From Brevibacillus panacihumi W25 (GTDB taxonomy: Bacteria > Bacillota > Bacilli > Brevibacillales > Brevibacillaceae), in contig NZ_KI629785.1 of assembly GCF_000503775.1 (NCBI RefSeq), positions 1,487,501-1,551,500 on the forward strand: a DNA stretch of 64,000 nucleotides, in the 5' to 3' direction. Numbering within the stretch: position 1 is the first letter of the stretch; each line of letters starts with the position of its first letter. This document shows, in pieces, positions 32,051-56,482 of this stretch. The translations under genes and the position numbers were made by a program. The notes below the pieces were generated by a model. It was not told where the DNA came from. It saw only the letters and a list, made by a program, of their open reading frames with translations, and ran no database searches.

Positions 32051-32273
32051 AGTGGCGGAGAGGAAAAAGGGGGAAACGCTCCAGCCGGTTGGGATCTTAG
32101 CTGGGGGGCATCCCTGGCCGCCTCCCACTCCAAAGGCGGAACCGCGGCCAAAAGCAGCCGATTCGAAGAAGCGGTATCCAGGTTGTCCGCTAAAGGCGTG
32201 TTCCGCCTTTTCCGTTCCGGCTTGGTTGAGATCCCAAATGCCTTCGCTTTTTCCCCTTTTTCCTCTGCCAGCT
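32051..32273. repeat. Dispersed palindromic repeat, copy 1
   Basis: 223-bp element with nested inverted segments: outer GAGGAAAAAGGGG... / ...CCCCTTTTTCCTC, then GGGATCT / AGATCCC, then AAAGGCGGAAC / GTTCCGCCTTT. It shares a 34-bp identical block (from 32128, ACTCCAAAGGCGG...) and a 21-bp block (GTGTTCCGCC...) with copy 2. It fills the space between the M20-gene terminator and the pckA upstream region. Open frames in it are not conserved between copies, so it is probably not coding. Nothing else is evident between 31856 and 32300 apart from A+T-rich pckA upstream DNA. Confidence 0.8.
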
Positions 32274-32303
32274 ATCTCTGCTCCTCCAGCTTATATAAAA
32301 TCC

Positions 32304-32347
32304 AAAAAGGAAATCACCCAACGCGACTTGTGGGTGACTTCCTTTTT
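32304..32347 (-). terminator. Terminator of the M20 amidohydrolase gene
   Basis: Minus-strand stem GGAAGTCACCCA / TGGGTGATTTCC (one mismatch) followed by TTTTT; it begins a few bases after the stop at 32350. Confidence 0.88.
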
Positions 32348-32349
32348 TA

Positions 32350-33507
32350 CTATTCCCGCTCTCCTTGCAGCTTCTCAAACGTCTTCACGACCACTCGGGC
32401 CATAATCTCTACGCCTTTGACCAGGTCTTCTCGGTTGAAATGCATTTTGGGGTGGTGCAGTCCCGGCTGCAGGTCACAGCCAAGCGCCAGCATAGTCGCT
32501 TTGATGTGCGGACGCTCGACGGTGTAGAAATGAAAATCTTCCGCTCCTGGTGTAACGGGAGCTGGTTGCAGCTTCTCTTGTCCGAGCACGTCTACGATGG
32601 CTTGCTCCATCAATTGCTTCGCCTCGTCCGCCACCTCGGCGGCGACCATCCTGGCTCCCTGCTCCAGGGAGATTTCGGCCTGGTACGAGACCGCTACGCC
32701 TTCTATGATCTGCTTGACGCGTTTGACGAGATCATCCATCGCCTCATTGGTCTGCGCCCGCAGGTCAAGCGCAAAACGCGCCTTGTCAGGAATGATGTTG
32801 TAGCTTTCCCCGCCCGCCTGCAGCGTGGTCATTTTTACCGTAGCCGGAACCATGGGATTGGTATGTACCTGCCCGATCCCCGAGAGGATTGCCCCTGCTA
32901 CCTCGATCGCATTGATGCCGAGATGAGGTCTGGCACCGTGCGCGGACACGCCTGTAATCTCCCCGTATAGAAACATCGCCCCGCCATTGTAGATCGCCCC
33001 GCCGCAATGACCGCTTCTCATCTCCTGGATCGGGCGCAAATGGACACCGTACAGGTAGTCGATGTCATCCACAACGCCTTTTTCGACCAGCTTCAAGGCT
33101 CCGGTCCCTTTTTCTTCAGCAGGCTGAAAGAGAATCTTTAGCGTCCCCGGCGGCTGATACCCGGATGCTATCAGAGATTCTACCGCTTCCAGCACCACGG
33201 TCATATGCGCATCATGTCCGCAAGAATGGTTGGCTTTCCACTCGCCGTCTACTTCCTGCCAGAGCGCGTCGATGTCTGTCCGCAGTGCGACCACCGGCTT
33301 GCCCTCGCCCCATTCCGCCACAAGTCCCGTACAGTCCTCGAACGTCGTTACGCGCAATCCCAAAGCGCGCATGCGTTCCGCCAAGTATCGAGTTGTCTCC
33401 ATTTCCTTCCAGCTTATCTCCGGATTGGCGTGCAAGTGTTGGAATGTTTGGTCAATGAATTGCTCACGAGAGGCAACAGCTTGGCGAAGCGGCAACGCAG
33501 TGGTCAT
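32350..33507 (-). CDS. M20 family amidohydrolase (AmhX-like)
   Basis: A 385-residue metallo-amidohydrolase of the M20/ACY1 group. Metal-binding residues lie in CGHDAH (96-101), PAEEKGTG (Glu131, Glu132) and ISGVSAHGARPH-like LTGVSAHGARPHLG; a dimerisation domain is inserted between about 180 and 290. It most resembles B. subtilis AmhX (ALRTDIDALWQEVDGEWKAN segment). Members hydrolyse N-acyl amino acids or amino-acid conjugates; the substrate is unknown. ATG 33507 follows AGGAGGAAT. Monocistronic, with its own terminator. Confidence 0.87.
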   Translation of the reverse strand: MTTALPLRQAVASREQFIDQTFQHLHANPEISWKEMETTRYLAERMRALGLRVTTFEDCTGLVAEWGEGKPVVALRTDIDALWQEVDGEWKANHSCGHDAHMTVVLEAVESLIASGYQPPGTLKILFQPAEEKGTGALKLVEKGVVDDIDYLYGVHLRPIQEMRSGHCGGAIYNGGAMFLYGEITGVSAHGARPHLGINAIEVAGAILSGIGQVHTNPMVPATVKMTTLQAGGESYNIIPDKARFALDLRAQTNEAMDDLVKRVKQIIEGVAVSYQAEISLEQGARMVAAEVADEAKQLMEQAIVDVLGQEKLQPAPVTPGAEDFHFYTVERPHIKATMLALGCDLQPGLHHPKMHFNREDLVKGVEIMARVVVKTFEKLQGERE

Positions 33508-33581
33508 CGTGATTCCTCCTCATTCAGCTTTTTCCCCATTATAGCACAGGTCTTTTCCAACAATCGGAGGTTCCGAAGCTG

Positions 33582-33926
33582 TCATTTGCAGGTAAGCCGA
33601 AAAAGCGCATCCAGCTTCAACTGATCCCTGCAAGTCCCCGTCATCTTCACTTTTTGTTTGGCGATCACATAACGCATTTCATCCCCTTCCAGAAGCATCC
33701 CGATCTCCTGCTCCCTGCCGCGCACCACCAGGTCCGGCTGTTCCGTCCCGTTCCATTCCTGACACATAGACCCCTCTCTTGAAAATACAAGCTGCCAGCG
33801 GATCTGCGTATCCTCCGTGACAATCCCGATCCGCCTTTCCCACCCCATCATGACGGGCCAAAGATGTTTTTTCCGCTGCAAACGCACAAGCATTTCATCT
33901 AGCAGGTTTTCGATTCGAGTCGTCAT
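33582..33926 (-). CDS. SCP-2 sterol-transfer-like domain protein
   Basis: A 114-residue protein consisting of a single SCP2-like domain: WQLVFSREGSMCQEWNGTEQ, PDLVVRGREQEIGMLLEGDE and a final basic KVKMTGTCRDQLKLDALFRL. SCP2 domains bind lipids or acyl chains; B. subtilis has a comparable small protein (YusD) close to the gcvH/yusI genes that also occur here. ATG 33926 follows GGGAGGCGAT. No membrane segment. Family call is good, function open. Confidence 0.75.
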   Translation of the reverse strand: MTTRIENLLDEMLVRLQRKKHLWPVMMGWERRIGIVTEDTQIRWQLVFSREGSMCQEWNGTEQPDLVVRGREQEIGMLLEGDEMRYVIAKQKVKMTGTCRDQLKLDALFRLTCK

Positions 33927-34045
33927 GGCCGATCGCCTCCCTCTTTTCCAAGGGGTTCGCCTGTGCTTGCGTCGAATCCTTTGACGAGGAATGAGAAGCT
34001 CTGTCGCCTCTTGTCAGGCAAGAAATGTACTTCTCGACAATGGGC

Positions 34046-34076
34046 AAAAAAAGACACCTGCTTCTTGCAGATGCCT
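34046..34076 (-). terminator. Terminator of the VOC gene
   Basis: Minus-strand stem AGGCATCTGC / GCAGGTGTCT (with two G-U pairs), 5-base loop, then seven Ts. Confidence 0.82.
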
Positions 34077-34101
34077 GTTGTTTCCTATCCCTATTCAACT
34101 G

Positions 34102-34503
34102 TTACTCTTCAATTTCATCGAATTCATCCTTGTCCAGACGGACCTCGAGATGATGCCCATCCGGTGTTTCAAAATACAAGTTGAAGCTTGTAGGTCTGGT
34201 GATAGGGCCGCGATAGCAGATATTTTCCGCCTCCAGCTTGTCTACCAGGTAATCCAGTTCGGCGCGGCTAGTAACAGAAAAAGCGATGTGGTCTACCTGT
34301 CCCACTCCGCCTTTTCCCTCTTCCCCGCTGTGCGGGTGCAGGCCGATCCGTGTGTATGTGCCAATTTGAAAGTAGACAGGCTCTCCTTCTACAATACTTT
34401 CTTCCGGGATAGGAACTTCCAGGATGTCATGAAAAAACCGAGCTGTTTTCCTCACATCACTGCAATTTAACGCGATGTGATGAACTCCTTTCAAATGAAA
34501 CAT
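34102..34503 (-). CDS. VOC superfamily protein (glyoxalase/bleomycin-resistance fold)
   Basis: A 133-residue protein with two beta-alpha-beta-beta-beta modules. Conserved metal-site positions are visible: KGVHHIALNCSD at the start, GQVDHIAFSVTS in the middle, and FETPDGHHLEVRLDKD near the end, where the Glu is the usual last ligand. The family includes glyoxalase I, dioxygenases and thiol transferases; I cannot assign the reaction. ATG 34503 follows GGGAGG, and the protein ends in an acidic tail. Confidence 0.83.
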   Translation of the reverse strand: MFHLKGVHHIALNCSDVRKTARFFHDILEVPIPEESIVEGEPVYFQIGTYTRIGLHPHSGEEGKGGVGQVDHIAFSVTSRAELDYLVDKLEAENICYRGPITRPTSFNLYFETPDGHHLEVRLDKDEFDEIEE

Positions 34504-34528
34504 TCACACTGCCTCCCAGGTCTTTCGA

Positions 34529-34963
34529 TCAAGCGCTTTTCTGCGAAATTTGCTTTCTCTTGTTGTAGTGCTTCAATCGCTCGCTTAACCGTTTCAAACG
34601 GATCATCAACGCTTCTCGCCACTCGTCATCCTTCAGATCTTTGGCTACGCCAAGCAGATCCAACGAGATGTCGATCTGTTGTTTCAACACGTCAGAGAAG
34701 CTGATTGCTTCGTCCGTCATGGTACAATTCTCAAACAACTCCGATGTATTGTCAACACTCACGAAGTCGGTGAAGTCCACTTCAGGAGCTTTATCTCCCT
34801 GTGCATATTCTACTAAAATTTCGTATTCCCCTTCAATAGCAGGATGAACGTCAATTCTGTCACATACAGGACAAAACATGATGGGGACATTGTGCACCAG
34901 CGTTTTATGATGACGGACAGACCCAATTGACCCTACCATTCCAGCGCCGCAACAAAAACTCAT
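34529..34963 (-). CDS. Unrecognised protein with Cys-rich zinc-ribbon-like start
   Basis: A 144-residue protein. It begins MSFCCGAG, and residues 28-34 read IMFCPVC, giving two Cys pairs that could bind zinc. The centre is acidic (EVDFTDFVSVDNTSELFENC) and the carboxyl end is helical and basic (MIRLKRLSERLKHYNKRKQ). I do not recognise the family. ATG 34963 follows GAAGGAGGGAG. It lies 25 bp upstream of the VOC gene on the same strand and may be co-transcribed with it. The 5' region holds an imperfect inverted repeat at 35027-35053. Confidence 0.7.
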   Translation of the reverse strand: MSFCCGAGMVGSIGSVRHHKTLVHNVPIMFCPVCDRIDVHPAIEGEYEILVEYAQGDKAPEVDFTDFVSVDNTSELFENCTMTDEAISFSDVLKQQIDISLDLLGVAKDLKDDEWREALMIRLKRLSERLKHYNKRKQISQKSA

Positions 34964-35175
34964 TTCGTCTCCCTCCTTCTTCGCCCAAACAAATAAGTCT
35001 CGTGTTTGAACGATAGTCTGTCTGTACTAGTCATTGTAGCCTAAATGACCTAGAAGTCTCTACCCGCAAAAGATGCCAAAAGTTGATCGTAAAAGTAAAT
35101 GTACAATTATTGTACTCGATGAAAGAGGAAACGACCACTATTTTCTGACTAGTTAGATTTTTCCATGCTGGTCGT

Positions 35176-35205
35176 AAAAAAAGCTGAGGACTTGGCCCCA
35201 GCTTT
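35176..35205 (-). terminator. Terminator of the gcvH operon
   Basis: Minus-strand stem AAAGCTG / CAGCTTT with inner G/C pairs, followed by a T-run, ten bases after the gcvH stop. Between 34964 and 35175 I see only the small inverted repeat noted for the neighbouring gene. Confidence 0.82.
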
Positions 35206-35215
35206 CTTCTGATCA

Positions 35216-35596
35216 CTATTCTTTTACCATCGCTTCGTATTTGTCGGCATCCATCAGCTTATCCAATTCTGCTTCGTCCGACAGTTCCACGACGATCATC
35301 CACGCTTTCTCGTACGGCGAGGAATTCACCAGTTCAGGCGCATCTTCCAGCTCTCCGTTTACCTCGATGACTTTGCCGCTCAAAGGCGCGTACAGCTCCG
35401 ATACGGTTTTGACAGACTCGACACTTCCGAATGGCTCGTCCTGTTGAATCGTGGAACCAACCTCTGGCAACTCGACGAACACGATGTCACCCAGTTCAGA
35501 TTGTGCAAATTCTGTAATGCCGATATAAGCCTTATTGCCTTCAATACGCACCCACTCATGCTCTTCGCTGTAACGCAGATTTTTTGGGAATTCCAT
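35216..35596 (-). CDS. gcvH: Glycine cleavage system H protein
   Basis: GcvH is the lipoyl carrier of the glycine cleavage system and in Bacillus also the lipoyl relay for other dehydrogenases. The 126-residue protein has the lipoylation lysine Lys63 in [19 protein letters not shown], and the ends [14 protein letters not shown] and [15 protein letters not shown] match the family. The P, T and L genes are not nearby, as is common. It lies 62 bp downstream of a thioredoxin-like gene, apparently in one transcript. Confidence 0.96.
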
Positions 35597-35658
35597 CGTT
35601 TACGTATCCTCCTATTCGGGTACAATCCATTCTTTCATAAAGATATTTGACGCCTTTT

Positions 35659-36111
35659 CTAGGATTCCTCTTCAATGCCTAAAATTCGGAACAGGCGTTT
35701 TTTAACCAGGTTCAAGCCCTTCTCTCCTGCCTGGAAATGGCGAAGCTGCAGATTCTCGTCAAAGAGATAAAAAGCTGGGACGTACTCATTTTGAAAAGCA
35801 TCCACGGTCTTCATCTCGTTGTCGATGGCGACCGGATGGGTCAGCTCGTACTCCGCAATGGTAGCCTTGATCGCTTCGATATCCGTATCCTTCTCGGAGC
35901 GAGGCATGTGTACGCCAATCACCTTCAGCCCATTGGCTGCGTATTTGTCCCGCCACTCATTGATATTGGGCAAGGATTCCTTGCACATGTAGCAGCTGAC
36001 TGACCAGAAGTGGACCAGCACAGGACTGCCTTGCAAATCCGCTTTTGTGACCTGCCCGTTCACCCATTCTGTGATTCCCGGAAAATCTGGCAATTCTTCA
36101 CGCAGACGCAT
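35659..36111 (-). CDS. Cytoplasmic thioredoxin-like/TlpA-type protein
   Basis: A 150-residue thioredoxin-fold protein. The redox motif is CYMC in VHFWSVSCYMCKESLPNI (residues 40-43), and the cis-proline loop is EYVPAFYLFD. It resembles the redoxin domain of ResA/TlpA and DipZ-type proteins, but there is no signal peptide or membrane anchor, so it should act in the cytoplasm, where such proteins reduce disulfides or peroxides. ATG 36111 follows AAAAGGAGAT. It precedes gcvH in the same direction. Confidence 0.85.
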   Translation of the reverse strand: MRLREELPDFPGITEWVNGQVTKADLQGSPVLVHFWSVSCYMCKESLPNINEWRDKYAANGLKVIGVHMPRSEKDTDIEAIKATIAEYELTHPVAIDNEMKTVDAFQNEYVPAFYLFDENLQLRHFQAGEKGLNLVKKRLFRILGIEEES

Positions 36112-36227
36112 CCTTCACACATCTCCTTTTCAAAAGGCTGGACAAACTTTCCTTATACCTGACTATACCTGTTCTCTACGCAGATTTCCAGCTACTTGTC
36201 TCGATGTTTTGGAAGGGGTGGTCCACC

Positions 36228-36457
36228 AGCTGTAGTGGCGGGGATGAAAAAGGGGAAAACGCTTCAGGCCGGCTGGGATCTTTGCTGGGGGATAGCACTG
36301 GTCGTCTGCACTCCAAAGGCGGAACCGCGGCCAAAAGCAGCCGTTACCAGGAGGTGATTCAGGGTTAGCCGCTGAAATCGTGTTCCGCCTTTTCCGTTCC
36401 GACTGGGTCAAGATCCCAAATGCCTTCCGCTCTTTTCCCCTTTTTCATCGACCAGCT
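36228..36457. repeat. Dispersed palindromic repeat, copy 2
   Basis: 230-bp element with the same nested plan as copy 1: outer GATGAAAAAGGGGAAAA / TTTTCCCCTTTTTCATC (17-bp perfect stem), GGGATCTT / AAGATCCC, AAAGGCGGAAC / GTTCCGCCTTT. The two loops between conserved blocks differ from copy 1, while stem segments are conserved, suggesting selection or recent origin of the stem parts. It sits between the peroxiredoxin terminator and the thioredoxin-like gene, 117 bp upstream of the latter. The rest of 36112-36524 shows nothing further. Confidence 0.8.
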
Positions 36458-36524
36458 TTTCCAGGTCTCCCTTCCACCTTTTGTGGGCTTCTCAAAGGGG
36501 GGTTAAGCCCATCGGTATTATCAA

Positions 36525-36566
36525 CAAAAAACGTGCAGCCCCTCCCTAGAAGAAGGACTGCACGTT
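36525..36566 (-). terminator. Terminator of the peroxiredoxin gene
   Basis: Minus-strand stem AACGTGCAGTCC / GGGCTGCACGTT (one mismatch) with a 15-base loop, followed by TTTT, 30 bp after the stop. Confidence 0.86.
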
Positions 36567-36596
36567 ATAGATGGTTCATTCAATAGTAATGCGCGA

Positions 36597-37145
36597 TTAC
36601 TTCGCAGTCAGTTGAGCTTGTCCTGGACGCCAGTTGGCTGGGCACAGACCGCCGGATTGCAGAGCTTGCAGTACGCGCAGAGTCTCGTCAGTGGAACGGC
36701 CGATGTTCAGGTCATTTACTACTTGGTATTTCAGGATGCCTTCTGGATCGATGATGAACAGACCGCGGAACGCTACGCCTGCTTCTTCATCCAGCACGCC
36801 GTAGTCGCGAGCTGTTGTTTTCAGGAAGTCTGCAGCCAGTGGGTAGTTCAAGCCACCCAGACCGTTTTGGTCGCGAGGAGTGTTGATCCAAGCGCGGTGG
36901 GAGTGGATGGAGTCTACAGAGATACCGAGAACTTCTGCATCCAGGTCTTTGAATTCTTCGATTGCATCGCTCAGTGCGATGATCTCAGTTGGGCATACAA
37001 AGGTAAAGTCCAGTGGATAGAAGAACATGACCAGCCATTTGCCACGGTAGTCGGACAGGGATACTTTGCCGAACTCTTTACCGTTTCCGAGTGCTGTTTC
37101 CAGAGTGAAATCTGGTGCTGGGAGACCGACCAAACGTTGTGCCAT
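36597..37145 (-). CDS. 2-Cys peroxiredoxin (AhpC/TSA family)
   Basis: A 182-residue typical 2-Cys peroxiredoxin. The peroxidatic cysteine is Cys51 in [10 protein letters not shown] and the resolving cysteine Cys168 in [12 protein letters not shown]. It reduces H2O2 and organic hydroperoxides; no AhpF gene is adjacent, so thioredoxin is the likely reductant. ATG 37145 sits behind a very strong CAAGGAGGT site, consistent with high expression. Single gene with clear promoter and terminator. Confidence 0.94.
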
Positions 37146-37191
37146 ATGTAAAAAACCTCCTTGGAATGTGGTGTACTAGCTTACCTATCAC

Positions 37192-37221
37192 ATAATATCA
37201 TTGCTATCACTTTATAGTCAA
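37192..37221 (-). promoter_or_regulatory. Promoter of the peroxiredoxin gene
   Basis: Minus strand TTGACT (37216-37221), 18-bp spacer, TATTAT (37192-37197), 47 bp before the start codon. A good SigA-type promoter. The region is A+T-rich, but I could not fit a convincing PerR box. Confidence 0.68.
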
Positions 37222-37308
37222 TACAATGTAGGAATTATTTCAACCTGTTATTCATTTTCATTCCATTCGGAACAAGCACAAAAGTAATGTTTCCTGCAGT
37301 CCCGTCCC

Positions 37309-38496
37309 CTATGCATCCTTTTTTCTCTGGAGTATCCCGGAGCTGGCGATGGATGCGGCTGCCTCTCTCAATACTTCTCGATCCTGGACAAGCGCAATGC
37401 GCACATAGCCTTCCCCTTCGGCGCCAAAAGCGCTCCCCGGAATCACGACGACACCCGCCTCCTCCAGCAAGGCCAACGCAAATTCATGTGACGTCCACCC
37501 CGTCGGCACCGGGGCCCAGACAAACATCGTAGCTTTTGGCGGTTCAATCACCCAGCCCGCTTTCGCCAGCTCCGCCAGCAATACATCACGCCGCTCCTGA
37601 TACAGCCCACTCACGCTGTTTCGGCCGCCGGACAGCCGGTCTTCCCTCATCGCCGCAACCGCCATCTCCTGTACAGGCAAGAAAACCCCATAGTCGACAT
37701 TGGACTTGACGATGGCGAGCGGCTTGATGATCTCCGCATTTCCCACGACATAGGCGATCCGGCAGCCAGCCATATTGAAGCTTTTGGAAAACGAGTTGAA
37801 CTCGATCCCCACTTCTTTGGCACCGGGAGCTTGCAGAAAGCTGGGCGGCTTGTAACCATCGAAGGCCATTTCCGAATAGGCGAGATCATGCACCACGATA
37901 ATGTCATGCCGCCGGGCAAATTCTACCACCTCTTCAAAGAAGGCCACGGTGGCTACAGCGGAGACAGGATTGTTGGGATAGTTGAGAATCATGAACTTTG
38001 CCTGCTTGGCTGCCTCTTGCGGGATCGCAGCGAGATCCGGCAGAAATCCGCGCTCCGCTTTCAAGGGCATAAAATAAGGAGTGGCCCCGGCCAGATGGAC
38101 ACTGCCGGCGTAGATCGGGTATCCAGGGTCAGGAACCAGCACCAGATCGCCCGGGTCTGTCCAGGCAAGAGCGAAGTGGGCCAACCCGTCCTGGGATCCC
38201 ATCAGGGAATGGATCTCCCCATCCGGATTCAACTCTACGCCAAAACGATATTGATACCACTGCGCAACCTCTGCCCGAAACGCTGCCGTCCCTTCACTGA
38301 GTGCATAGCCAAAAGCCCCCGGCTTCTCCACCGCTGCCGCAAGGGCTTCCAGCAGCGTGCGCTCTGGCTGCTGATCCGGACTGCCGATGCTCAGATCATA
38401 GACTCTCCTGGTCTGGGCTACCTCCCGTTTACGATTTGCCATCTCCGAAAAAATCGCGGCTGACAACTGTTCCAGTCGCTTCGACGGTCTGGGCAT
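37309..38496 (-). CDS. Class I/II aminotransferase (PatA / LL-diaminopimelate aminotransferase-like)
   Basis: The 395-residue enzyme is a fold-type I PLP aminotransferase. The PLP lysine is in FNSFSKSFNMAGCRIAY (about residue 233); other landmarks are GSPDQQP, YALSEG, PDPGYPIY, NYPNNPV and HDLAYSEM. The closest named groups are PatA-like and LL-diaminopimelate aminotransferase-like enzymes, but substrate cannot be assigned from sequence alone. ATG 38496 follows GGGGAGGAAAG. It lies five bases after the YusI-like gene and is surely co-transcribed. Confidence 0.85.
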   Translation of the reverse strand: MPRPSKRLEQLSAAIFSEMANRKREVAQTRRVYDLSIGSPDQQPERTLLEALAAAVEKPGAFGYALSEGTAAFRAEVAQWYQYRFGVELNPDGEIHSLMGSQDGLAHFALAWTDPGDLVLVPDPGYPIYAGSVHLAGATPYFMPLKAERGFLPDLAAIPQEAAKQAKFMILNYPNNPVSAVATVAFFEEVVEFARRHDIIVVHDLAYSEMAFDGYKPPSFLQAPGAKEVGIEFNSFSKSFNMAGCRIAYVVGNAEIIKPLAIVKSNVDYGVFLPVQEMAVAAMREDRLSGGRNSVSGLYQERRDVLLAELAKAGWVIEPPKATMFVWAPVPTGWTSHEFALALLEEAGVVVIPGSAFGAEGEGYVRIALVQDREVLREAAASIASSGILQRKKDA

Positions 38497-38500
38497 GATT

Positions 38501-38863
38501 TCACTTTCCTCCCCAGGTTTTTTCCAGTTCTTCTGGTTTAAAGCCCAAAGTTACCTTTTTCTCATCGGTGATCAAAGGACGCTTGATCAGCTTTCCATTG
38601 GAGGCGAGCAAATCAAGCATCTCTTCCTCAGACATGGTTGGCAGCTTGTCCTTGAGGCCCAGCTCTTTGTACTGAACTCCGCTCACGTTAAAAAACTTGC
38701 GAAGCTCAAGCCCGCTTGCTTGCCAGATGCGGCGCAGCTCCTCCTTGGTCGGTGGGGCTTCTACAATCGGAATCTCCTCAAAGCTGATGCCTTCCTCGCT
38801 CATCCACTTCTTCGCTTTGCGGCATGTGTCGCATTTATTATACAGATATGCTTTAATCGCCAT
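38501..38863 (-). CDS. ArsC/Spx-like thioredoxin-fold protein, YusI homologue
   Basis: A 120-residue protein of the arsenate reductase-like/Spx branch. It has the CxxC pair Cys11/Cys14 (NKCDTCRKAKKW), FNVSGVQYKELGLKD and the RPLITDEKKVTLGF end, matching YusI-type proteins rather than Spx itself, since the RNA-polymerase contact pattern of Spx is not evident. Function unknown; a redox role is likely. ATG 38863 follows AGAGGTGAT. First gene of a two-gene unit with the aminotransferase. Confidence 0.83.
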   Translation of the reverse strand: MAIKAYLYNKCDTCRKAKKWMSEEGISFEEIPIVEAPPTKEELRRIWQASGLELRKFFNVSGVQYKELGLKDKLPTMSEEEMLDLLASNGKLIKRPLITDEKKVTLGFKPEELEKTWGGK

Positions 38864-38888
38864 GCTTGCATCACCTCTGTCATTTTAT

Positions 38889-38922
38889 AAGGAACGACAG
38901 CCCAAAATCTCCAGGCTGCCGT
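38889..38922 (-). terminator. Probable terminator of the DUF2797 gene
   Basis: Minus-strand stem ACGGCAGCC / GGCTGTCGT (one mismatch) with an 11-base loop, followed by TTCCTT. The weak U-tract lowers confidence. Confidence 0.5.
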
Positions 38923-38954
38923 CTTCTCGCTGTTCTCTCGCTGCTGTTTTGGTT

Positions 38955-39767
38955 TTACGAACCGGATTGGACCGTAATCTGGACCTGGTACCCCGCATGC
39001 TTTCTCGCTTGAAAGACGCCATTTTCAAAGATCAGGTACTGAGCCTTCACCCCGATGAGACGTCCACCGATCCTCTCTTCTTTATCAAGCGTCTTGGAGT
39101 TGATCTTGTCCAAAGACTCCAGGATTGGATAGGTAATATCGACCCATTCATCTTCACGGTATTGGAATGGCTTGAAAGCGTCCGGGAAATGGCTGTACAC
39201 TTCGTCGCGCAAAGTGATCAAGTCGACCTCCCGCACTTCTCCTTTCAACATTTTACGCCAGTTGGTTTTATCAGGCAAAAATTGGCTGAGGTGAAACTCC
39301 AGCTCCCCGGCCATCCGTCTCGTCGGCACCTCGGCGATCGGAATCGCACGGATCGCTCCCTGATCCACCCAGCGCTTCAATTCATTGTTTTTGCGTGTCA
39401 AACCCACTTTAATATCGCTGGAAACAGCCAAATAGACGTAATGCGGAATCATGCAATACGATTGGCCGAAGCTCTCATCCCGGCATGTCCCCAGCTCAAA
39501 ATGACATTCATGCGGTTTGACGATGCAAAGGTCATTTTCCGGCAGTTTGGTAAAGCAAGGATAGCAATAGCCGCTGTTGAAGGTCTTGTTCGTCTTGCGG
39601 CCACAGGCAATGCAATTCTTCTGTCCCAGATAGGAAATGGTGACTTCGTGATTCAGCCACTCGTTTAATGGCAAACGGTCTTCGCCGATTTGCAGATAGT
39701 AGTCAACAGGCTTGTCCTTGCCATGGTATTGGTGTGTCAAGCCATGCAGCAAACCGCTCAGTTCCAA
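38955..39767 (-). CDS. DUF2797 protein with Cys-rich zinc-binding region
   Basis: A 270-residue protein. Residues 52-72 contain CIACGRKT and GYCYPCF, a four-Cys zinc ribbon; further Cys/His residues follow in LCIVKPHECHFE and GTCRDESFGQSYC. Next comes YVYLAVSSDIKVGLTR with WVDQGAIRAIPIAEVPTRRMAG, reminiscent of GIY-YIG nuclease strands, a feature of DUF2797. No activity is established to my knowledge. The start appears to be TTG 39767 after GGGGAGAGTAGG. Confidence 0.78.
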   Translation of the reverse strand: MELSGLLHGLTHQYHGKDKPVDYYLQIGEDRLPLNEWLNHEVTISYLGQKNCIACGRKTNKTFNSGYCYPCFTKLPENDLCIVKPHECHFELGTCRDESFGQSYCMIPHYVYLAVSSDIKVGLTRKNNELKRWVDQGAIRAIPIAEVPTRRMAGELEFHLSQFLPDKTNWRKMLKGEVREVDLITLRDEVYSHFPDAFKPFQYREDEWVDITYPILESLDKINSKTLDKEERIGGRLIGVKAQYLIFENGVFQARKHAGYQVQITVQSGS

Positions 39768-39907
39768 CCTACTCTCCCCTTCCCGATTTACATCTTCTCA
39801 TTCTATCACATCATCGATCCGCGTTGACGGTTGCTTTGTTTTGGCTGCATGTTTTCACAGCCTGGGGGCGAAGCTATGACCATACTCGATGGAAGGAGGC
39901 GTTTTCC

Positions 39908-40618: not shown

Positions 40619-40620
40619 GA

Positions 40621-40661
40621 AAAGGCACCAGTCCTTCCGGTTGCCGGAACGACTGGCGCCC
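40621..40661 (-). terminator. Terminator of the orphan ABC ATPase gene (possibly bidirectional)
   Basis: Long stem of about 17 bp (GGCGCCAGTCGTTCCGG / CCGGAAGGACTGGTGCC, two mismatches) with a 3-base loop, followed on the minus strand by TTTTCC. It may also stop the convergent deacetylase transcript. Confidence 0.8.
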
Positions 40662-40678
40662 ATGTTATCATCTACTGC

Positions 40679-41410: not shown

Positions 41411-41495
41411 GGCATCACCTCCTGGAGCTTCCTGCGTGTGCTTGGTCATCATATGCTTCTATCATACACGAAAATTGTCGCAATTGCATGAAAGA

Positions 41496-43406: not shown

Positions 43407-43509
43407 CCCAACCATCTCCCCTTTTCTTTCCCAGTTGAGAAAGAGAATCAGACTTATTTCTCCCGTAAAAACAGTGGAAGCTGCTGCCCGAAGGCAACAG
43501 CATCCTAAT

Positions 43510-43524
43510 TGATAATGATTATCC
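43510..43524 (-). promoter_or_regulatory. Fur-family operator (7-1-7 box)
   Basis: Plus-strand TGATAATGATTATCC differs from the Bacillus Fur consensus TGATAATNATTATCA at one position. It lies about 105 bp upstream of the metal ATPase (minus) and 150 bp upstream of sppA (plus). The composition fits Fur better than PerR or Zur boxes. Confidence 0.6.
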
Positions 43525-43674
43525 TTATTTTTACCTAGGCGAATCCTTTTGCGTCAGGTAAATATTTTTATATTCATTCTAATGTGGAAACTGCCTTACC
43601 GTCAAACCCAATTTTCCATCATTTGATGTGTAACAGCGACGAGGTCTGTTCATGATAAGAGTGAGGTGAATAAC

Positions 43675-44649
43675 ATGCAGCGTAAAAAATGGATTGCTCT
43701 CATCATCGTTATGGCTGTGTTGTTTGCGGGCCTGATTGTAGAGGGATTTACAGGAACTCCCGAAGATCTGGCAAATCATCCAGGGTACGCGTGGGAAGAA
43801 AACGTGGTCTCCGGAACTGGCAACGCCAAAATCATTCAGCTTTTTGTCAATGGCGTCATCTCTGGCGAACGAAACGCGGCTGGCATCCCTACCAATACAG
43901 AGATTCTTCGCGAGCAGCTTCGTTATGCCGAGGAGGATGAAAATGTAAAAGCGCTGGTGCTTCGGATCGACAGTCCCGGAGGCGAGGTCGTAGCCACCGA
44001 TGAGATTTACAATCGGCTATTGCGATTCAAACAGGTTCGGAACATTCCCATCGTTGTCAGCATGGGCTCTACAGCAGCATCAGGCGGTTACTACCTGGCA
44101 ACCGCCGCGGATACGATATTTGCCAATCCAAATACGCTGACAGGCAGCCTGGGCGTTATTTTTAATCTCGTCAACTACAGCGAAGCAGCCAATAAGCTGG
44201 GAATCCACCAGTACGCCATCAAAAGCGGACGCTTCAAAGACATCGGAAGCCCCACTCGCCCCGTCACTGCTCAAGAGCAGCAAATTTTTCAAACACTGGT
44301 GAATGAAAGCTACCATAAATTCGTCGATGTCATTGTCAAAGGCCGCAACTTAAGTCGCGAACGGGTACTGGAGATTGCCGATGGACGAGTCTATTCCGGA
44401 GAACAAGCAAAGCAGCTTGGATTGATCGACAAGTTTGGCGATCTGGAGGAAGCGACGCAGCATGCCCTCTCCTTGTCTGGTGAACAAACGGCGACAGTCG
44501 TACGGTATTCTGATCAAATCTCGTTCAGCAAACTGCTGTTCAGCATGAAGCAGCATTGGTCCAATCCGGATCCTTTGGGCCTGTCCCGTATTTTGGATCG
44601 CCATTCCACACATCGTTTGCTGTATCAATTCATTCCTGGAGAATCGTAG
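43675..44649 (+). CDS. sppA: Signal peptide peptidase SppA
   Basis: A 324-residue membrane-anchored serine protease with one amino-terminal membrane segment (residues 6-24). The catalytic serine is Ser136 in GSTAASGGYY and the lysine Lys183 in YAIKSGRFKDIG; the oxyanion loop IDSPGGEVVATDEIY is present. SppA degrades leftover signal peptides and takes part in envelope stress tolerance. The ATG at 43675 follows GAGTGAGGTG. It is followed 12 bp later by an RDD-family gene, the sppA-yteJ order of B. subtilis. Confidence 0.95.
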   Translation: MQRKKWIALIIVMAVLFAGLIVEGFTGTPEDLANHPGYAWEENVVSGTGNAKIIQLFVNGVISGERNAAGIPTNTEILREQLRYAEEDENVKALVLRIDSPGGEVVATDEIYNRLLRFKQVRNIPIVVSMGSTAASGGYYLATAADTIFANPNTLTGSLGVIFNLVNYSEAANKLGIHQYAIKSGRFKDIGSPTRPVTAQEQQIFQTLVNESYHKFVDVIVKGRNLSRERVLEIADGRVYSGEQAKQLGLIDKFGDLEEATQHALSLSGEQTATVVRYSDQISFSKLLFSMKQHWSNPDPLGLSRILDRHSTHRLLYQFIPGES

Positions 44650-44661
44650 GGAGGATAAGCA

Positions 44662-45129
44662 ATGACACAGAAAATGCTGGATGATTCACCGCCGGTCAAG
44701 GATGTGTCCACCCACGTTTTTGCCGGCTTTTGGATTCGGGTGGCAGCTACTATCTTTGATTCCCTCTTTTTGATGGGCGTCTCCTTGTTGATCTTCAATC
44801 CCCTGCGCCGTCTGTTCGGAGTGTACGGGGCTGCCTTTTCCCAGATCGATCTGCTGGAAATCCTGTTCTCCCTGCTATACTTCATTCTGCTAACCTGGTG
44901 GACCGGACAAACGCTCGGCAAAATCATTACCGGGATTCGCGTCATTCCCACTGGCGAGGGGCGAGGCAGCCTCTCCGCCGGTCAAGTCATTTTACGCGAG
45001 GTAATCGGCAAATTCGTCTCGTCCCTGGTATTTGGGCTCGGCTACATGTGGGTTGGCTGGAACAAGAAAAAACAAGGCTGGCATGATCTCATCGCCAATA
45101 CCTTCGTCGTTTGGGAAAAGCGGGTCTAG
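44662..45129 (+). CDS. yteJ: RDD family membrane protein, YteJ-like
   Basis: A 155-residue RDD protein. It begins with a polar start, then FAGFWIRVAATIFDSLFLMG, whose Arg and Asp are the RDD hallmark; WWTGQTLGKIITGIRVI is the second conserved block, and the carboxyl end has NKKKQGWHDLIANTFVV, with the conserved His-Asp. About three membrane segments. In B. subtilis YteJ modulates SppA activity, and the adjacent sppA supports the same here. ATG 44662, with GGAGG nearby. Confidence 0.9.
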   Translation: MTQKMLDDSPPVKDVSTHVFAGFWIRVAATIFDSLFLMGVSLLIFNPLRRLFGVYGAAFSQIDLLEILFSLLYFILLTWWTGQTLGKIITGIRVIPTGEGRGSLSAGQVILREVIGKFVSSLVFGLGYMWVGWNKKKQGWHDLIANTFVVWEKRV

Positions 45130-45143
45130 GACGCAGCCAAACA

Positions 45144-45187
45144 AAAAACTCGCTTCCGCGTCGGTCACGCGAAAAAGCGAGTTTTTT
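45144..45187 (+). terminator. Terminator of sppA-yteJ
   Basis: Twelve-bp perfect stem AAAAACTCGCTT / AAGCGAGTTTTT followed by more Ts and a GC-rich inner loop; 14 bp after the stop. Confidence 0.88.
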
Positions 45188-45338
45188 ACCTTGCTTGCAT
45201 TTGTTGTTGTGGTGCAGCGGGAGCAGGCGGTTTGTCCTCTTCTTCATAAAAGAACGGGAGGAGGACCAAGCTCACGACGAAAAACAGTATCCAGATGATC
45301 CCACGCTTGAAAATGCACGGAGTAAGCACTTGGACCAA
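45186..45338 (-). CDS. Possible 50-residue single-span membrane peptide
   Basis: A short minus-strand frame, TTG 45338 (or GTG 45329), preceded by AAAAGGGG. The predicted peptide has a basic start (IFKRG), one hydrophobic segment (IIWILFFVVSLVLLPFF), an acidic turn YEEEDK and a tail rich in Pro, Ala and Gln. The regular topology supports a real small gene, but I know no relative. Its stop touches the sppA-yteJ terminator. It lies downstream of the MFS gene on the same strand. Confidence 0.5.
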   Translation of the reverse strand: MVQVLTPCIFKRGIIWILFFVVSLVLLPFFYEEEDKPPAPAAPQQQMQAR

Positions 45339-45401
45339 CCCCTTTTCACGTCATTCTCTATATATCTACGCTTCCCCACCTGCCGCCCGTTTATCCCAAT
45401 T

Positions 45402-46592
45402 TTATGCACCTGTAAAAATTTTTTGTCCATGCTGTTCCGTTGCCGCTCGTTTCGGCCTGCTGCGATGAACCAGACAGGCGGCGGCAAACGCCAACAGCTG
45501 CGCACCCATCAGCCAAAACATCGTCCACGGTTCCCACGCCTGCATCAGATACCCGTTGATCCCCGGAGCGAGAATACTGGCTACTCCGAAGTTAATCCCT
45601 GCTACGATGCCTACCGTCGGAATCAGGGAGCCTGGCAAGAGATCTGCCGCATAAGCCAGGCCAAGGGAATAAAAAGAGCCGACAGCCGCCCCGGCCACTG
45701 CCAACAGCAGCATCATCACCCAGACGTTCTCCCCCGCCAGCGGAAACAGGAAAAAGGCAGCCGCGCCAACCAGGGCGCAGACGAACATCACTTTTTTGCG
45801 TCCTACCCTGTCACTCAATGCCCCGAGCGGCATTTGCAGAATGATGCTCCCGACGATAAACGACGGCAGGATCAGGGACATCCACTCCAGCGACAAGCCC
45901 GTACGCAAGGCATACACAGGAAAGCTTCCATTGAGTGAAGTTTCCATGAAACCGTAGAGAAAAGCCGGAATCAGCGCCAGCCAGCCGATGCGCAGAACCG
46001 TTACATATTTGTTCTGCTTTTTCTCCGTCGGTCTGAACTCTTCGGGGTAGTCATTTTTGATTCGCGCCAGCAGCAAATAGGCGATGACGTACAGCACGAT
46101 CAACGCAGCAAACGGCACCCACAAGCCAAACGTCAGCAAGTTCAGGCCCAATGGACCAATCCCGAAGCCAATTCCAAAAGCCAGTCCGTAGATCGACAAG
46201 TCGCGTCCCCTGTTTTTCTCCGAGGTAATTTTCGTTACCCACATCTGGCTGGCGTAATGCAGACTGGAATCCCCCACCCCCATCAGCAAACGCAGGATAA
46301 ACCAGATCGTCAAGGAAGAGAAGACAGGGACCAGCAAGGTCGATCCCGTCAACAGCACCAGTCCCCAGAAGATCGTGTTTTTATAGCCCAGACGACGCAA
46401 GGGGATCTCTAGCCAAGGAGAGACGAGCACGATTCCCAGATACAAAGCCGTTGCATTCAAGCCATTGACCACAGAGGATACGCCTTGCTGCTCCAGCAAG
46501 ACGGCCAGCAATGGAATGGTCAAGCCTTGATTGGCTCCCGCGACCGCCACGACGACGATCAACACCCAAAAGGTGTAGCGCGATGATTGCAT
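45402..46592 (-). CDS. MFS transporter (probable drug efflux)
   Basis: A 396-residue major facilitator protein with twelve hydrophobic segments. The loop 2-3 motif region reads LEIPLRRLGYKN, and a second copy between segments 8 and 9 reads GALSDRVGRKKV. Family members are proton-coupled exporters; the position 18 bp after an ABC multidrug exporter gene suggests a shared export or resistance role (inference). ATG 46592 has a GTGAGGG site somewhat far upstream. Confidence 0.86.
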   Translation of the reverse strand: MQSSRYTFWVLIVVVAVAGANQGLTIPLLAVLLEQQGVSSVVNGLNATALYLGIVLVSPWLEIPLRRLGYKNTIFWGLVLLTGSTLLVPVFSSLTIWFILRLLMGVGDSSLHYASQMWVTKITSEKNRGRDLSIYGLAFGIGFGIGPLGLNLLTFGLWVPFAALIVLYVIAYLLLARIKNDYPEEFRPTEKKQNKYVTVLRIGWLALIPAFLYGFMETSLNGSFPVYALRTGLSLEWMSLILPSFIVGSIILQMPLGALSDRVGRKKVMFVCALVGAAAFFLFPLAGENVWVMMLLLAVAGAAVGSFYSLGLAYAADLLPGSLIPTVGIVAGINFGVASILAPGINGYLMQAWEPWTMFWLMGAQLLAFAAACLVHRSRPKRAATEQHGQKIFTGA

Positions 46593-46610
46593 GGTGTTGA
46601 ACCCTCACTT

Positions 46611-48689
46611 TCATGATCCCGATGCGGTAGCAGAAAGACTTCCTTGTTGGAGCTGGTACATTTTTCGATACAGGCCGTCACGACCCATCAGCTCCTCATG
46701 TGTCCCTCGCTCCACCACTTCCCCGCGCGACAATACCAGAATTTGATCAGCATGCTGAATCGTCGACAGCCGATGCGCGATGATGAATGTGGTCCTTCCT
46801 TGAGACAGCACGTGCAGTGCCTCCTGGATGGCAGACTCCGTCTCGCTGTCGATGCTGGCTGTCGCCTCGTCCAGGATCAGAATCGCGGGATCGCTGACCA
46901 GTGCACGGGCAAAGGAAATGAGCTGTCGCTGTCCTGCCGACAAGGTCGATCCCCGCTCCACCACCGGTTCGTCATAGCCGCCCGGCAACTGCCGGATAAA
47001 ATCATCCGCACGAACAGCTTTGGCTGCTTCGCGGATCTGTTCATCCGTCACGTGATCATTGTACATGCGTATGTTGTAGCCCACGCTTCCCGCAAAGAGA
47101 AACGGATCCTGCAAAACCAGACCGAAATGGCGGCGCAAGGATTGGATGTCCAACTCGCTCATTGGCGTGCCATCGATCAAAATCTGCCCTTTTGTCACGG
47201 GGTAATAGCCAAGCAACAGGTTCATTAATGAGCTTTTTCCCGAACCCGTGTGGCCAACCAAGGCGATCGTCTCGCCCGGTTTTGCCGTGAATGAGACATC
47301 TTTGAGCACGTATTCATCCCCGTTATAGGCGAAGGACACGTGATCGAACACTACTTCTCCCTTTGGTCGGGGAGCGGCCGTTTTCTTCTCATCCTCCTGC
47401 GCCGGAGTATCCAAAATCTCGAAGACCCGTTTGGCCGAAATATTCGCCTGCTGAAGCTGTGAGAGGCGATCCATGATCATGTTGATCGGCTCGAAAAAAC
47501 GCCCCATGTAATCGACAAAGGCAAACAGCGCCCCGAAGGAGATCGCGCTGTGAAAGGAGGCAGAGCCGAAGTACCAGACGATCAAGGTCAATGCCACCTT
47601 CCAGATCAGGTCGACAGCCGGACGAAGCAGGAACGATTCGACGTTGATTTCCTTCAGTCTGACTTTGAAATACTCCTCGTTCATCTGGGCGAATTCCTGC
47701 TGTACGCCCTTTTCGCGGCGAAACGCTTGCACGATCGTCATGTTTTGAATCATCTCGTTGATCGTCGCGTTCATGTCGCTGAGCCGAGTGCGTATAAGCG
47801 TGTAGTAGCGCGAGCTGTACTTGCGGTACACGATGACGAGCAAGACGAGCAGCGGCACCGTCACGCAGCAAAACAGAGCAAGCTCTGGCTGCAGCAGGAA
47901 CAAGGCGATCAATATTCCGACCAGGTAGAAACCGTTCTGCACAAAGGTAGCCAAAACGCTGACGTACAGCTCCCGAATCGCCTCTGTATCGTTGGTGACA
48001 CGCGAGACAAGTGAGCCTACAGGCGTCTTGTCAAAAAAGGAGACCGGGAGCTTTTGCAGATGGGAAAACAGCTTCATCCGCATCTGCTGGATAATCCGTT
48101 GCGCGATCTTTTGCAGCCACAAGATCTGAATGTAATTGAAGCCCGCCGACAAGAGGATCAGGACCCCATAGCCCGCAGATAGCCAGATAATCGGCTGGAC
48201 ATCTGCCGCATACATCCCTTTTACCTCTGCTGCCGTCAGACGAATGCCTGAGGCAGGCTCGGATTGGTTCACGCTCACTTCTACCCGCTCCCGGCCACTT
48301 TCCGCAGCGACCGGTGTGATCTGCTTTTCCCCGTTTTGCTCTACGATTCCCTCGACCAGGTAATACGTCATTCCTTCTGTCAGCACTGTCATCTGCTGAT
48401 CCTGCAAGCGATCCGGCGTTTCCCCGATCGCCGGCAACTTATCTTCCCGCACGTAATAATAGCCGTCCACTTCGACTGCGATCTTTGCAGCTGCCTGCGG
48501 CTTCTGCTCAAACTGGTACCAGGTCTGCTGAATGGCGAGGATGTGATTGTCGATCATCACCTTCGCCAAGAAGGGACCCGCCAGCTCTGCTCCCGTGCCA
48601 AGCACCAGAAGAAAAAGCGCTCCCGCGATTTGTTTTTGAAAGGGTCTGGCGAATGCCACTAACCGTTCCCATACGTTCTGCCCACTCAT
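46611..48689 (-). CDS. ABC exporter half-transporter, BmrD/YheH-like
   Basis: A 692-residue half-transporter: six membrane segments, with an extra outward loop of about 120 residues after the first (KMIDNHIL..., about 45-170), and an ATPase domain. It shows Walker A GHTGSGKSS, signature TLSAGQRQL and Walker B ILILDEATASID with the catalytic Glu. The length and outward insert match B. subtilis BmrD/YheH. It pairs with the upstream BmrC-like protein as an asymmetric multidrug exporter. ATG 48689 lies 15 bp after the bmrC-like stop. Confidence 0.9.
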   Translation of the reverse strand: MSGQNVWERLVAFARPFQKQIAGALFLLVLGTGAELAGPFLAKVMIDNHILAIQQTWYQFEQKPQAAAKIAVEVDGYYYVREDKLPAIGETPDRLQDQQMTVLTEGMTYYLVEGIVEQNGEKQITPVAAESGRERVEVSVNQSEPASGIRLTAAEVKGMYAADVQPIIWLSAGYGVLILLSAGFNYIQILWLQKIAQRIIQQMRMKLFSHLQKLPVSFFDKTPVGSLVSRVTNDTEAIRELYVSVLATFVQNGFYLVGILIALFLLQPELALFCCVTVPLLVLLVIVYRKYSSRYYTLIRTRLSDMNATINEMIQNMTIVQAFRREKGVQQEFAQMNEEYFKVRLKEINVESFLLRPAVDLIWKVALTLIVWYFGSASFHSAISFGALFAFVDYMGRFFEPINMIMDRLSQLQQANISAKRVFEILDTPAQEDEKKTAAPRPKGEVVFDHVSFAYNGDEYVLKDVSFTAKPGETIALVGHTGSGKSSLMNLLLGYYPVTKGQILIDGTPMSELDIQSLRRHFGLVLQDPFLFAGSVGYNIRMYNDHVTDEQIREAAKAVRADDFIRQLPGGYDEPVVERGSTLSAGQRQLISFARALVSDPAILILDEATASIDSETESAIQEALHVLSQGRTTFIIAHRLSTIQHADQILVLSRGEVVERGTHEELMGRDGLYRKMYQLQQGSLSATASGS

Positions 48690-48704
48690 GAAACGCTCTC
48701 CCTT

Positions 48705-50456
48705 CTAGCCTTGACCGGCTGCTACGTCCTGCTCCATCTGTTGACGGCGATACTGCTCGGCGTACCAGCCCCCCTGCTTCATCAATTCCTCATGGGTTCC
48801 ACGCTCCACGATTCTTCCCTCATCGAGGACAAGGATCAGCTGGGCATGCTGTACGGCCGACAAGCGATGGGCCGTGATGATCGTCGTTTTTCCTTGCCGT
48901 TCCTGGCGGAGATGGTGGACGATTCGCTCCTCTGTCCGCGCGTCGACGGCTGAGAGCGAGTCGTCGAGAATCAGAATATCCGCATCCATCAGCAAAGCCC
49001 GTGCAATCGAGATGCGCTGCTTTTGTCCCCCGGACAAGGTGACGCCCTTCTCCCCGACCATCGTTTCGAGTCCTTCACCAAATTGCGCGAGATCACGTCC
49101 CATCTCCGCCAGTTCGAGTGCGCGCATGACCTCTTGCTCAGTCGCTTCCGGCTTGCCAAAGGCCACATTTTCTGCAATCGTCCGTGAGAACAATAGATGC
49201 TCCTGCGGCACGTAGCCGATTTTGGCGCGCAAGGAATCGAAGGAAATCTGCTCGATCGGCACACCACCGAAGAACAAGGCATCCTTTTCCATCCGATACT
49301 GGTGCAGCAAGGTCCGGCACAGGGTGGATTTGCCGCTCCCTGTTCGTCCCACGATCCCCAATGTCTCACCTTCCCCCAGCGAAAAGGTGATGTCATGCAG
49401 GACAGGTTTGTCCGTCCCCGGATAGGTGAAGGTAAAATGGCGGGCTTCGATATGATTGGCCCCTACCTCTGTTACGGGGTGGGAGGTCTCATGAACGTCC
49501 GGCTCCTCCGCCAGCATCTCTGTCAGTCGTTTGAGTGAAGCGCTCCCCCGCTGTACGACGTTGATCAGCCAGCCAAACGCGAACATCGGCCAGATCAGAA
49601 GGCCCAGATACAGGTTGAAGGCGACCAGATCGCCCAAGGAAATCGAACTGGTAAAGACCAGATACGTGCCGTAGCCCAATCCGATCAGGAAGCTGAATCC
49701 AATAATGATGCCAATGGTTGGTTCAAACAGCGCGTCGATGCGCGATACATTCACATTTCGCTCCAGTGTTTTCTCGCTCACTCGGCGAAACGCCTCCACA
49801 TCCTGGTCTTCCTGAACGAAGGCCCGCATGACTCGCACGCCGGAAACGGACTGCTGAACGTGGTCGTTCATTTCTCCAAATGCCTCCTGCGCCAGGTAAA
49901 AACGCTCGTGAAGCAACCGTCCGTAGTAAGCGGTCGACCAGGCGAGAAACGGCATGGGAACCAACGCTGCCAAGGTCAGCTTCCAATCGATGGACACGAT
50001 CATCACGCCAAGCGTCAGTAGCGTCATAAACAGCGAATCCACCAGGGTCAAAACGCCCATGCTCGCTGTCCGCTCCACAGCTGGAATATCGTTGGTGGCA
50101 ATCGCCATCAAATCTCCGCTGCGCCTGCGTTGGTAAAAAGAGGGGGTCATGCGGGTCAGATGGCCAAACAGCCGCTCCCGCAGCACCCGCTCCAGGATCA
50201 GCGCCCCGCCATTGAGCAGGTACCGCCAGACGAAACGCATCACGTACAGCGCCACGCCTAACGAGAGCAGGATGAAGAGCGTTTTCGTCAGGCCAGACTC
50301 GGTCAGCGAACCGTTGCGAATCGCATCCACGGTCTCTCCGATCAAGCGTGGCGGCCAAAGCATCAGGACATCAATCGCAAACAAGAAAGCAATACCCACG
50401 GTATACCGTTTCCAGTGCTTCCGAAAAAACCAGGACAATTCTCGCAAGATGTACAC
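48705..50456 (-). CDS. ABC exporter half-transporter, BmrC/YheI-like
   Basis: A 583-residue half-transporter with six membrane segments and an ATPase domain: Walker A GRTGSGKST, signature TLSGGQKQR. The Walker B reads ILILDDSLSAVDART, with Asp in place of the catalytic Glu, so one of the two ATP sites is degenerate, exactly as in the BmrC subunit of BmrCD. Start is GTG 50456 after AAGGTG. A terminator-like hairpin at 50482-50512 sits between promoter and gene, as in the attenuated B. subtilis bmrCD operon. Confidence 0.9.
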   Translation of the reverse strand: MYILRELSWFFRKHWKRYTVGIAFLFAIDVLMLWPPRLIGETVDAIRNGSLTESGLTKTLFILLSLGVALYVMRFVWRYLLNGGALILERVLRERLFGHLTRMTPSFYQRRRSGDLMAIATNDIPAVERTASMGVLTLVDSLFMTLLTLGVMIVSIDWKLTLAALVPMPFLAWSTAYYGRLLHERFYLAQEAFGEMNDHVQQSVSGVRVMRAFVQEDQDVEAFRRVSEKTLERNVNVSRIDALFEPTIGIIIGFSFLIGLGYGTYLVFTSSISLGDLVAFNLYLGLLIWPMFAFGWLINVVQRGSASLKRLTEMLAEEPDVHETSHPVTEVGANHIEARHFTFTYPGTDKPVLHDITFSLGEGETLGIVGRTGSGKSTLCRTLLHQYRMEKDALFFGGVPIEQISFDSLRAKIGYVPQEHLLFSRTIAENVAFGKPEATEQEVMRALELAEMGRDLAQFGEGLETMVGEKGVTLSGGQKQRISIARALLMDADILILDDSLSAVDARTEERIVHHLRQERQGKTTIITAHRLSAVQHAQLILVLDEGRIVERGTHEELMKQGGWYAEQYRRQQMEQDVAAGQG

Positions 50457-50481
50457 GTTTTTTCACCTTCTTTACTAAGAG

Positions 50482-50512
50482 AAAAACGCGAGGAATTACC
50501 CGCGTTGTTTTT
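50482..50512 (-). terminator. Hairpin in the bmrC leader, possible transcription attenuator
   Basis: Minus-strand AACGCG, GG, 5-base loop, CC, (T), CGCGTT, followed by TTTCTC and flanked by A/T runs that extend the stem. It ends 26 bp before the GTG start, far from any upstream stop, so it can only act on the bmrC transcript (or on a short leader). B. subtilis bmrCD is controlled by such an attenuator with a leader peptide. Confidence 0.55.
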
Positions 50513-50526
50513 GGTGGTGATTTTCC

Positions 50527-50617
50527 AGCTTTCCTGCCGGGGGAGGAAAAAGGGAAAACTCCAGCTTGGTCAAGATCCCAAATGCCTTCGCTTTTTTCCC
50601 TTTTTCCTCGACCAGCT
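50527..50617. repeat. Dispersed palindromic repeat, copy 3 (internally deleted)
   Basis: A 91-bp version of the element. The outer stem GAGGAAAAAGGGAAAA / TTTTCCCTTTTTCCTC is perfect over 16 bp; the shared AGATCCCAAATGCCTTC block is kept, while the roughly 130-bp centre with the AAAGGCGGAAC pairs is missing. It lies between the GNAT terminator and the bmrC attenuator. It would be transcribed if the bmrC promoter lies beyond it. Confidence 0.75.
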
Positions 50618-50671
50618 TTGTCTGGTCCCCCTCAACCTTTTGACGGTTTCTCAAGGAGTGCAAGATGTATG

Positions 50672-50696
50672 AAAAAGGGTTGCACAGACGCAACCC
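50672..50696 (-). terminator. Terminator of the OsmC-GNAT unit
   Basis: Minus-strand stem GGGTTGC / GCAACCC with a 6-base loop, followed by TTTTTC, about 40 bp after the GNAT stop. Confidence 0.82.
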
Positions 50697-50737
50697 TCAT
50701 TTTGCTCCTATCATCGTAATTGACAGAATTTTACCTG

Positions 50738-54214: not shown

Positions 54215-54253
54215 GTCATCGTACACGCATCAGGTAAACGTGCCCGTCTCCCC

Positions 54254-54392: not shown

Positions 54393-54424
54393 GTATCCAA
54401 CGTATGCAGTTTTGATTAGTTTGA

Positions 54425-56411: not shown

Positions 56412-56482
56412 TCAAGCGCCTGTCTTGACTTCTTACCCGAGAGATGAGAGGCGACGAAAAAACGTTCTTCAGACGACAAGCG

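Follow-up and report, generated by a model that had tools for sequence, protein, structure and literature searches.

Repetitive extragenic palindromic (REP) sequences are described as palindromes of 20–40 bp (PMC3733652) that are dispersed between genes in many copies, alternate in orientation within clusters (PMC2817692) and serve as targets of insertion sequence (IS) elements (PMC1525189). The bcr1 and other Bacillus cereus repeats are chromosomal, 100–400 bp long and show features of mobile elements, with an average of 39 bcr1 copies per strain (PMC6542083). Integron attC sites are recognized by structure as single strands and show little sequence conservation (PMC2727003), and elements of the IS200/IS605 group have hairpin ends and target the lagging-strand template (PMC6006769). 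Here we describe a family of long palindromic repeats found in a 64,000-nucleotide stretch of Brevibacillus panacihumi W25 (assembly GCF_000503775.1, contig NZ_KI629785.1, positions 1,487,501 to 1,551,500), called the window below. The repeat appears to be a dispersed and probably mobile element of a kind not described before, and its fold persists in related bacteria at places where the sequence has diverged.

A preliminary description of the window had proposed three copies sharing an outer stem and the block AGATCCCAAATGCCTTC, with further identical blocks common to copies 1 and 2. All of these were found, and the three copies (Table 1) have the same orientation, as stated there. The start of copy 2, given as 36228, lies closer to 36234, and the stretches between the identical blocks, which were said to differ, are likewise conserved and paired. 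The core of the element measures about 220 nt, or about 300 nt with its weakly conserved flanks; some conservation reaches approximately 35–45 nt past the outer stem on both sides. Two block patterns matched 59 places each in the W25 genome and reversed-pattern controls none. Together they define 63 intergenic places, some of them partial or interrupted, after removal of one mismatched lone match and splitting of three clusters.

Further copies, whose existence the preliminary description had left to be checked, are thus numerous in W25, and they occur in its relatives as well. A covariance model based on 50 training sequences, copies 1 and 2 among them, matched at least 24 of 26 genomes of the genus, at least 32 of 39 in the order (five of seven genera) and at least 19 of 299 genomes in a class-wide draw, two of these outside the bacterial family. 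Because the candidates scored were capped (88 for the genus, 58 for the order and 7 per genome for the class draw), and because a weak match may come from another subfamily or represent an antisense cross-hit, per-genome counts are rough. Structural relatives in G087, a genome from another family of the class, comprise three matches (L276–L278; best E value 5.3e-11). Copy 1 as a plain DNA query matched 21 of the 39 order genomes, all within the genus. Among the scored candidates of the order, genomes G003, G025, G028–G030, G037 and G038 gave no match; the sister species of G003 and G025 have many copies. The closest named record for the copy-2 locus is B. panacihumi JCM 15085, with 99% over the thioredoxin-like protein. 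IMG/VR contained no match for two patterns of the element. A literature search, with most subscription papers out of reach, turned up no article about a Brevibacillus repeat of this type, and the word Brevibacillus is absent from the available parts of PMC12306157 and PMC2267715. Two copies lie less than 200 bases from contig ends (G000:C4:1760000 and G000:C5:816538), where repeats may have broken the assembly.

The element has the architecture of one long hairpin, in which several Watson–Crick stems are separated by internal loops. In family A (127 matches, 123 distinct), 98.2% of the cells pair compared with 89.1 after shuffling, and double changes occur at 24 of the 39 pairs (491 cells, against 152 in shuffled and 23–63 in slid controls), in an alignment that was fitted to the covariance model and hence favours the structure. 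A MAFFT alignment of 50 sequences showed double changes at 20 of the 39 pairs. The outer stem, with 13 covarying pairs, forms terminal inverted repeats. When other subfamilies were added, 38 of the 39 pairs covaried (score 0.734, against 0.176 for shuffled and at most 0.123 for slid controls); this alignment has 52 rows, including five from family A and several antisense cross-hits. Compensatory stem changes, whose absence the preliminary description would have taken as refuting, are therefore present in large number. The stems are largely rewritten across subfamilies: the 38 rows from other subfamilies have at least two Watson–Crick types at 37 of the 39 pairs, and the stem-loop arrangement recurs in other genera despite different stem sequences. 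Motifs like ACCCAG, ACACGC and GGACAGT were seen by eye to recur. A strong reading is countered by the mean conservation of 0.68 in both paired and unpaired columns of these 38 rows, where conservation of 90% is attained in 10 of the 78 paired columns and in 13 of the 124 that are unpaired.

Covarying pairs are commonly taken as a sign of RNA, yet this repeat covaries in nearly every modelled pair with an RNA strand bias much weaker than that of ribonuclease P (RNase P) in the same genus. On pairs picked without G-U on either strand, and thus neutral to strand, the ratio of G-U to A-C was 34:13 in family A and 29:0 in the RNase P RNAs of the 26 genus genomes. A second pair set gave 75:51 compared with 75:6 in RNase P, and 38 members of other subfamilies gave 27:18. 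In only 20 of 50 sequences did the modelled strand have the lower fold energy. Promoter-like sites were not enriched 5′ of the 42 W25 copies analysed (0, 8 and 31 copies at two, three and four mismatches, against 1.7, 11.2 and 31.6 in shuffled sequences). Because the G-U excess is far below that of RNase P and promoters are not enriched, pairing looks to be enforced mainly at the DNA level, and the structured RNA considered in the preliminary description is weakened as an explanation. The repeat is thus a test case for the maintenance of shape at the DNA level and by template switching.

Orientation with respect to replication is nearly fixed and specific to the family. Of the 130 listed matches in four complete genomes that scored 110 bits or more, 127 lie on the presumed leading strand, although many of these sites are orthologous and thus not independent; the three exceptions among the matches listed are 41–100 kb from a contig end. 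Middle-scoring matches followed the same preference (40 of 45 among those listed). The assignment assumes that contigs of complete genomes start at the origin and have the terminus half-way, with which GC skew agrees in 18 of 19 fetched loci of genome G007. In W25, the GC skew of the flanks is negative at 60 of the 63 places when read in the plus orientation of the preliminary description.

By simple codon-based gene calls, 44 of the 63 W25 places lie between genes that both run with the modelled strand and one between genes that both run against it; nine are between convergent and two between divergent genes, and seven are without a call on one side. The fixed genomic context that had been proposed from the window therefore holds for the 44 co-directional places and breaks down at the nine convergent ones, all nine of which follow the majority orientation of their contig. 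The claimed position just beyond a terminator is borne out by eye in each of the three copies of the window, but a strict scan found a terminator on that side in only 11 of 42 W25 copies, compared with 0.2 in shuffles. The spacing to the next minus-strand gene, about 195, 122 and 78 bp for copies 1, 2 and 3, agrees with the earlier estimate.

Sites differ between species. A motif search and inspection by eye placed an element directly upstream of pckA in two of 26 genomes, one of them lacking the 5′ half, and several genomes of the Brevibacillus brevis clade have a related element about 2 kb further upstream. The copy-2 site is filled in one of 33 loci of relatives, that of B. panacihumi (L197 4654–4878), and in three inspected loci of this comparison the upstream gene is another one. 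In the B. brevis clade, array sizes differ between genomes at positionally matching sites; one deletion of 98 nt removes the 5′ end, and another of 143 nt is internal and leaves both ends in an orthologous copy, which makes it plausible that copy 3 arose by internal deletion, as had been supposed. No clean empty site was seen in the B. brevis-clade comparison. Other genomes contain same-direction arrays, alternating-orientation arrays and inverted pairs. At L092 1062–2687, five same-direction copies are spaced 351–352 nt apart and alternating variants produce a period of 703 nt; at L074 and L153, copies of family A take turns with a second, related type of hairpin that faces the other way.

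Several W25 copies are themselves occupied. A 447-aa open reading frame (ORF) lies inside the element at seven loci (L033, L035–L040), with identical first 60 residues. One of these ORFs was identified as a reverse transcriptase/maturase, and group II intron domains were present in both loci searched. The intron occupies one fixed point within the element at all seven loci, and its near-uniformity, against elements of about 85% similarity, suggests that it spread recently into old copies. An IS110-family element interrupts five further copies at the same point of the outer stem (L025, L030, L019, L006, L062). An IS3-type element with two ORFs lies within the intron at L034 and L036, the former with partly masked bases.

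Taken together, we consider the chances about even that these repeats form a superfamily of dispersed elements, non-autonomous and defined by the fold of one DNA strand, similar to REP sequences and bacterial interspersed mosaic elements (BIMEs). Replication would expose single strands, one of which would fold; an enzyme acting in trans would recognize the folded shape and insert or copy the element into gaps between genes. A more specific version, which we regard as possible but doubtful, is a family-wide class of folded single-strand DNA elements, with shape and not sequence as their defining feature, which a recombinase or transposase yet to be discovered would copy around bacterial chromosomes at the replication fork and which the group II intron and the IS110-family element occupy in turn at fixed points. 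The mobiliser of such a replication-oriented, shape-defined element could be sought by comparing carriers with close non-carriers.

Other identities fit less well. Overlapping ORFs are present in copy 1, but single-base insertions and deletions between full-length copies speak against a conserved frame and thus against protein coding. A riboswitch or leader is disfavoured by the unlike neighbours of copies 1 to 3, and Rfam contains no match for these copies or for the repeat family, its only matches in the window being two S-adenosylmethionine (SAM) riboswitches. The fetched long W25 copies, which might have represented an autonomous transposon with these ends, hold the group II intron, twice with the IS3-type insertion in addition; among the loci fetched, which were not searched systematically, none showed a transposase flanked by element ends. 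By eye, the core boxes of integron attC sites do not fit.

A number of observations weigh against a mobile element defined by its fold. The non-autonomous mobile element proposed in the preliminary description agrees with the dispersed intergenic copies and their presence or absence between species; no exact empty site or target-site duplication was found, in a comparison where the ends fade gradually and orthologous intergenic regions are too diverged to resolve a duplication. No transposase or recombinase was identified, in work that included no systematic search and none aimed at Y1 transposases, and plasmid and phage records searched with copy 1 gave no match. Sites look largely common by position within the B. 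brevis clade, among the matches listed, which implies that movement is slow or past. Most of the weakest matches (21 of 28 among those listed) have the opposite strand, so that shape by itself does not account for the strand preference. In 18 orthologous copies (six of 24 rows had no partner and were left out), one-sided changes gave G-U in 10 cases and A-C in 2, as predicted for RNA, and on the model's own pairs in 17 and 2; a C-to-T bias of leading strands could contribute to an excess of this kind. Between W25 and genome G016, paired columns diverge by 2.2% and unpaired columns by 6.2%, and this slower evolution of paired columns suggests constraint on individual copies. Flank identity between these two genomes is 89.6–99.2%. 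All six double changes on the model's pairs keep Watson–Crick pairing; they are confined to three copies, each less similar than its own flanks, so exchange between copies may explain them.

The slow paired columns and the 10:2 excess would also be expected if the repeat were a structured noncoding RNA, or an element of untranslated regions, that occurs in many copies, is read from the leading strand and is under selection copy by copy. Covarying stems and the co-directionality with the 5′ gene in tandem contexts (44 against 1) fit this explanation too. We nevertheless think it rather unlikely, given the overall mismatch ratio compared with same-genus RNase P, the fold energies and the shuffled-level promoter-like sites described above, the tendency of terminators to come before the element, the gain and loss of sites between species and the lack of an Rfam match.

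Hairpins have been suggested to arise and persist through template switching (PMC8794818). Inactive repeats whose arms are kept complementary by such quasipalindrome correction in replication, with no selection on the fold, would account for the weak strand asymmetry of mismatches and the predominance of Watson–Crick pairs. Correction alone does not predict the same stem and loop layout in other genera with different stems, or the recurrence by eye of motifs such as ACCCAG, although the equal conservation of paired and unpaired columns weakens this objection; we judge this origin a distinctly unlikely one. Least probable, and in our view very much so, is a chromosome-organising or replication-related DNA site bound by protein as duplex or cruciform, since its near-fixed orientation relative to replication, intergenic location and maintenance within the clade are set against copy numbers from zero to many in sister species, related subfamilies that favour the opposite strand, and arrays that grow and shrink.

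Table 1. Repeat copies, neighbouring features and riboswitches in the window
Feature	Position	Strand	Support
Copy 1, full-length element	32051..32273	- (= modelled strand)	Covariance model 239.2 bits; top place in genome DNA search
Copy 2, full-length element	36234..36457	-	Covariance model 235.6 bits
Copy 3, shortened derivative retaining outer stem	50535..50617	-	Covariance model 53.9 bits; inverted pair found
Terminator-like hairpin between 32350-33507 gene and copy 1	32303..32347	-	By eye
Terminator-like hairpin between peroxiredoxin-like gene and copy 2	36529..36566	-	By eye
Terminator-like hairpin between 50738-51406 gene and copy 3	50671..50703	-	By eye
pckA (presumed, as in the preliminary description), downstream of copy 1	30278..31855	-	ORF 525 aa; single match in each of 26/26 genus genomes
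Thioredoxin/TlpA-like gene (presumed), downstream of copy 2	35659..36111	-	ORF 150 aa; relatives in 33 loci
ABC transporter gene, bmrC-like (presumed, as in the preliminary description), downstream of copy 3	48705..50456	-	ORF 583 aa
SAM riboswitch	54252..54394	-	Rfam match
SAM riboswitch	56306..56450	+	Rfam match

Among described systems, the shape-defined mobile element that we favour resembles REP sequences, BIMEs and REPINs in its dispersed extragenic palindromes, alternating clusters and targeting by IS elements. Alternation is seen in arrays of other species, though other arrays keep one orientation, and the Brevibacillus repeat differs in its length of about 220 nt and its several stems with internal loops. 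No REP-associated tyrosine transposase (RAYT, TnpA-REP) was identified for it, and no search for the Y1 family was made. The Bacillus cereus repeats are nearest in size and habit, a comparison made by description and not by sequence; their mobility is tied to a TTTAT motif (PMC6542083), and none was noticed in the Brevibacillus repeat, in which no aimed search was made. Lagging-strand-template targeting as in IS200/IS605 elements could yield a replication-linked orientation; the whole Brevibacillus element, in contrast, is a single nested hairpin, and no Y1 transposase was identified or searched for. It differs from integron attC sites in that no gene cassettes were seen between copies, and it shares with miniature inverted-repeat transposable elements (MITEs) the terminal inverted repeats formed by the outer stem. 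The proposed element would thus be REP/BIME-like in habit and attC-like in its reliance on shape.

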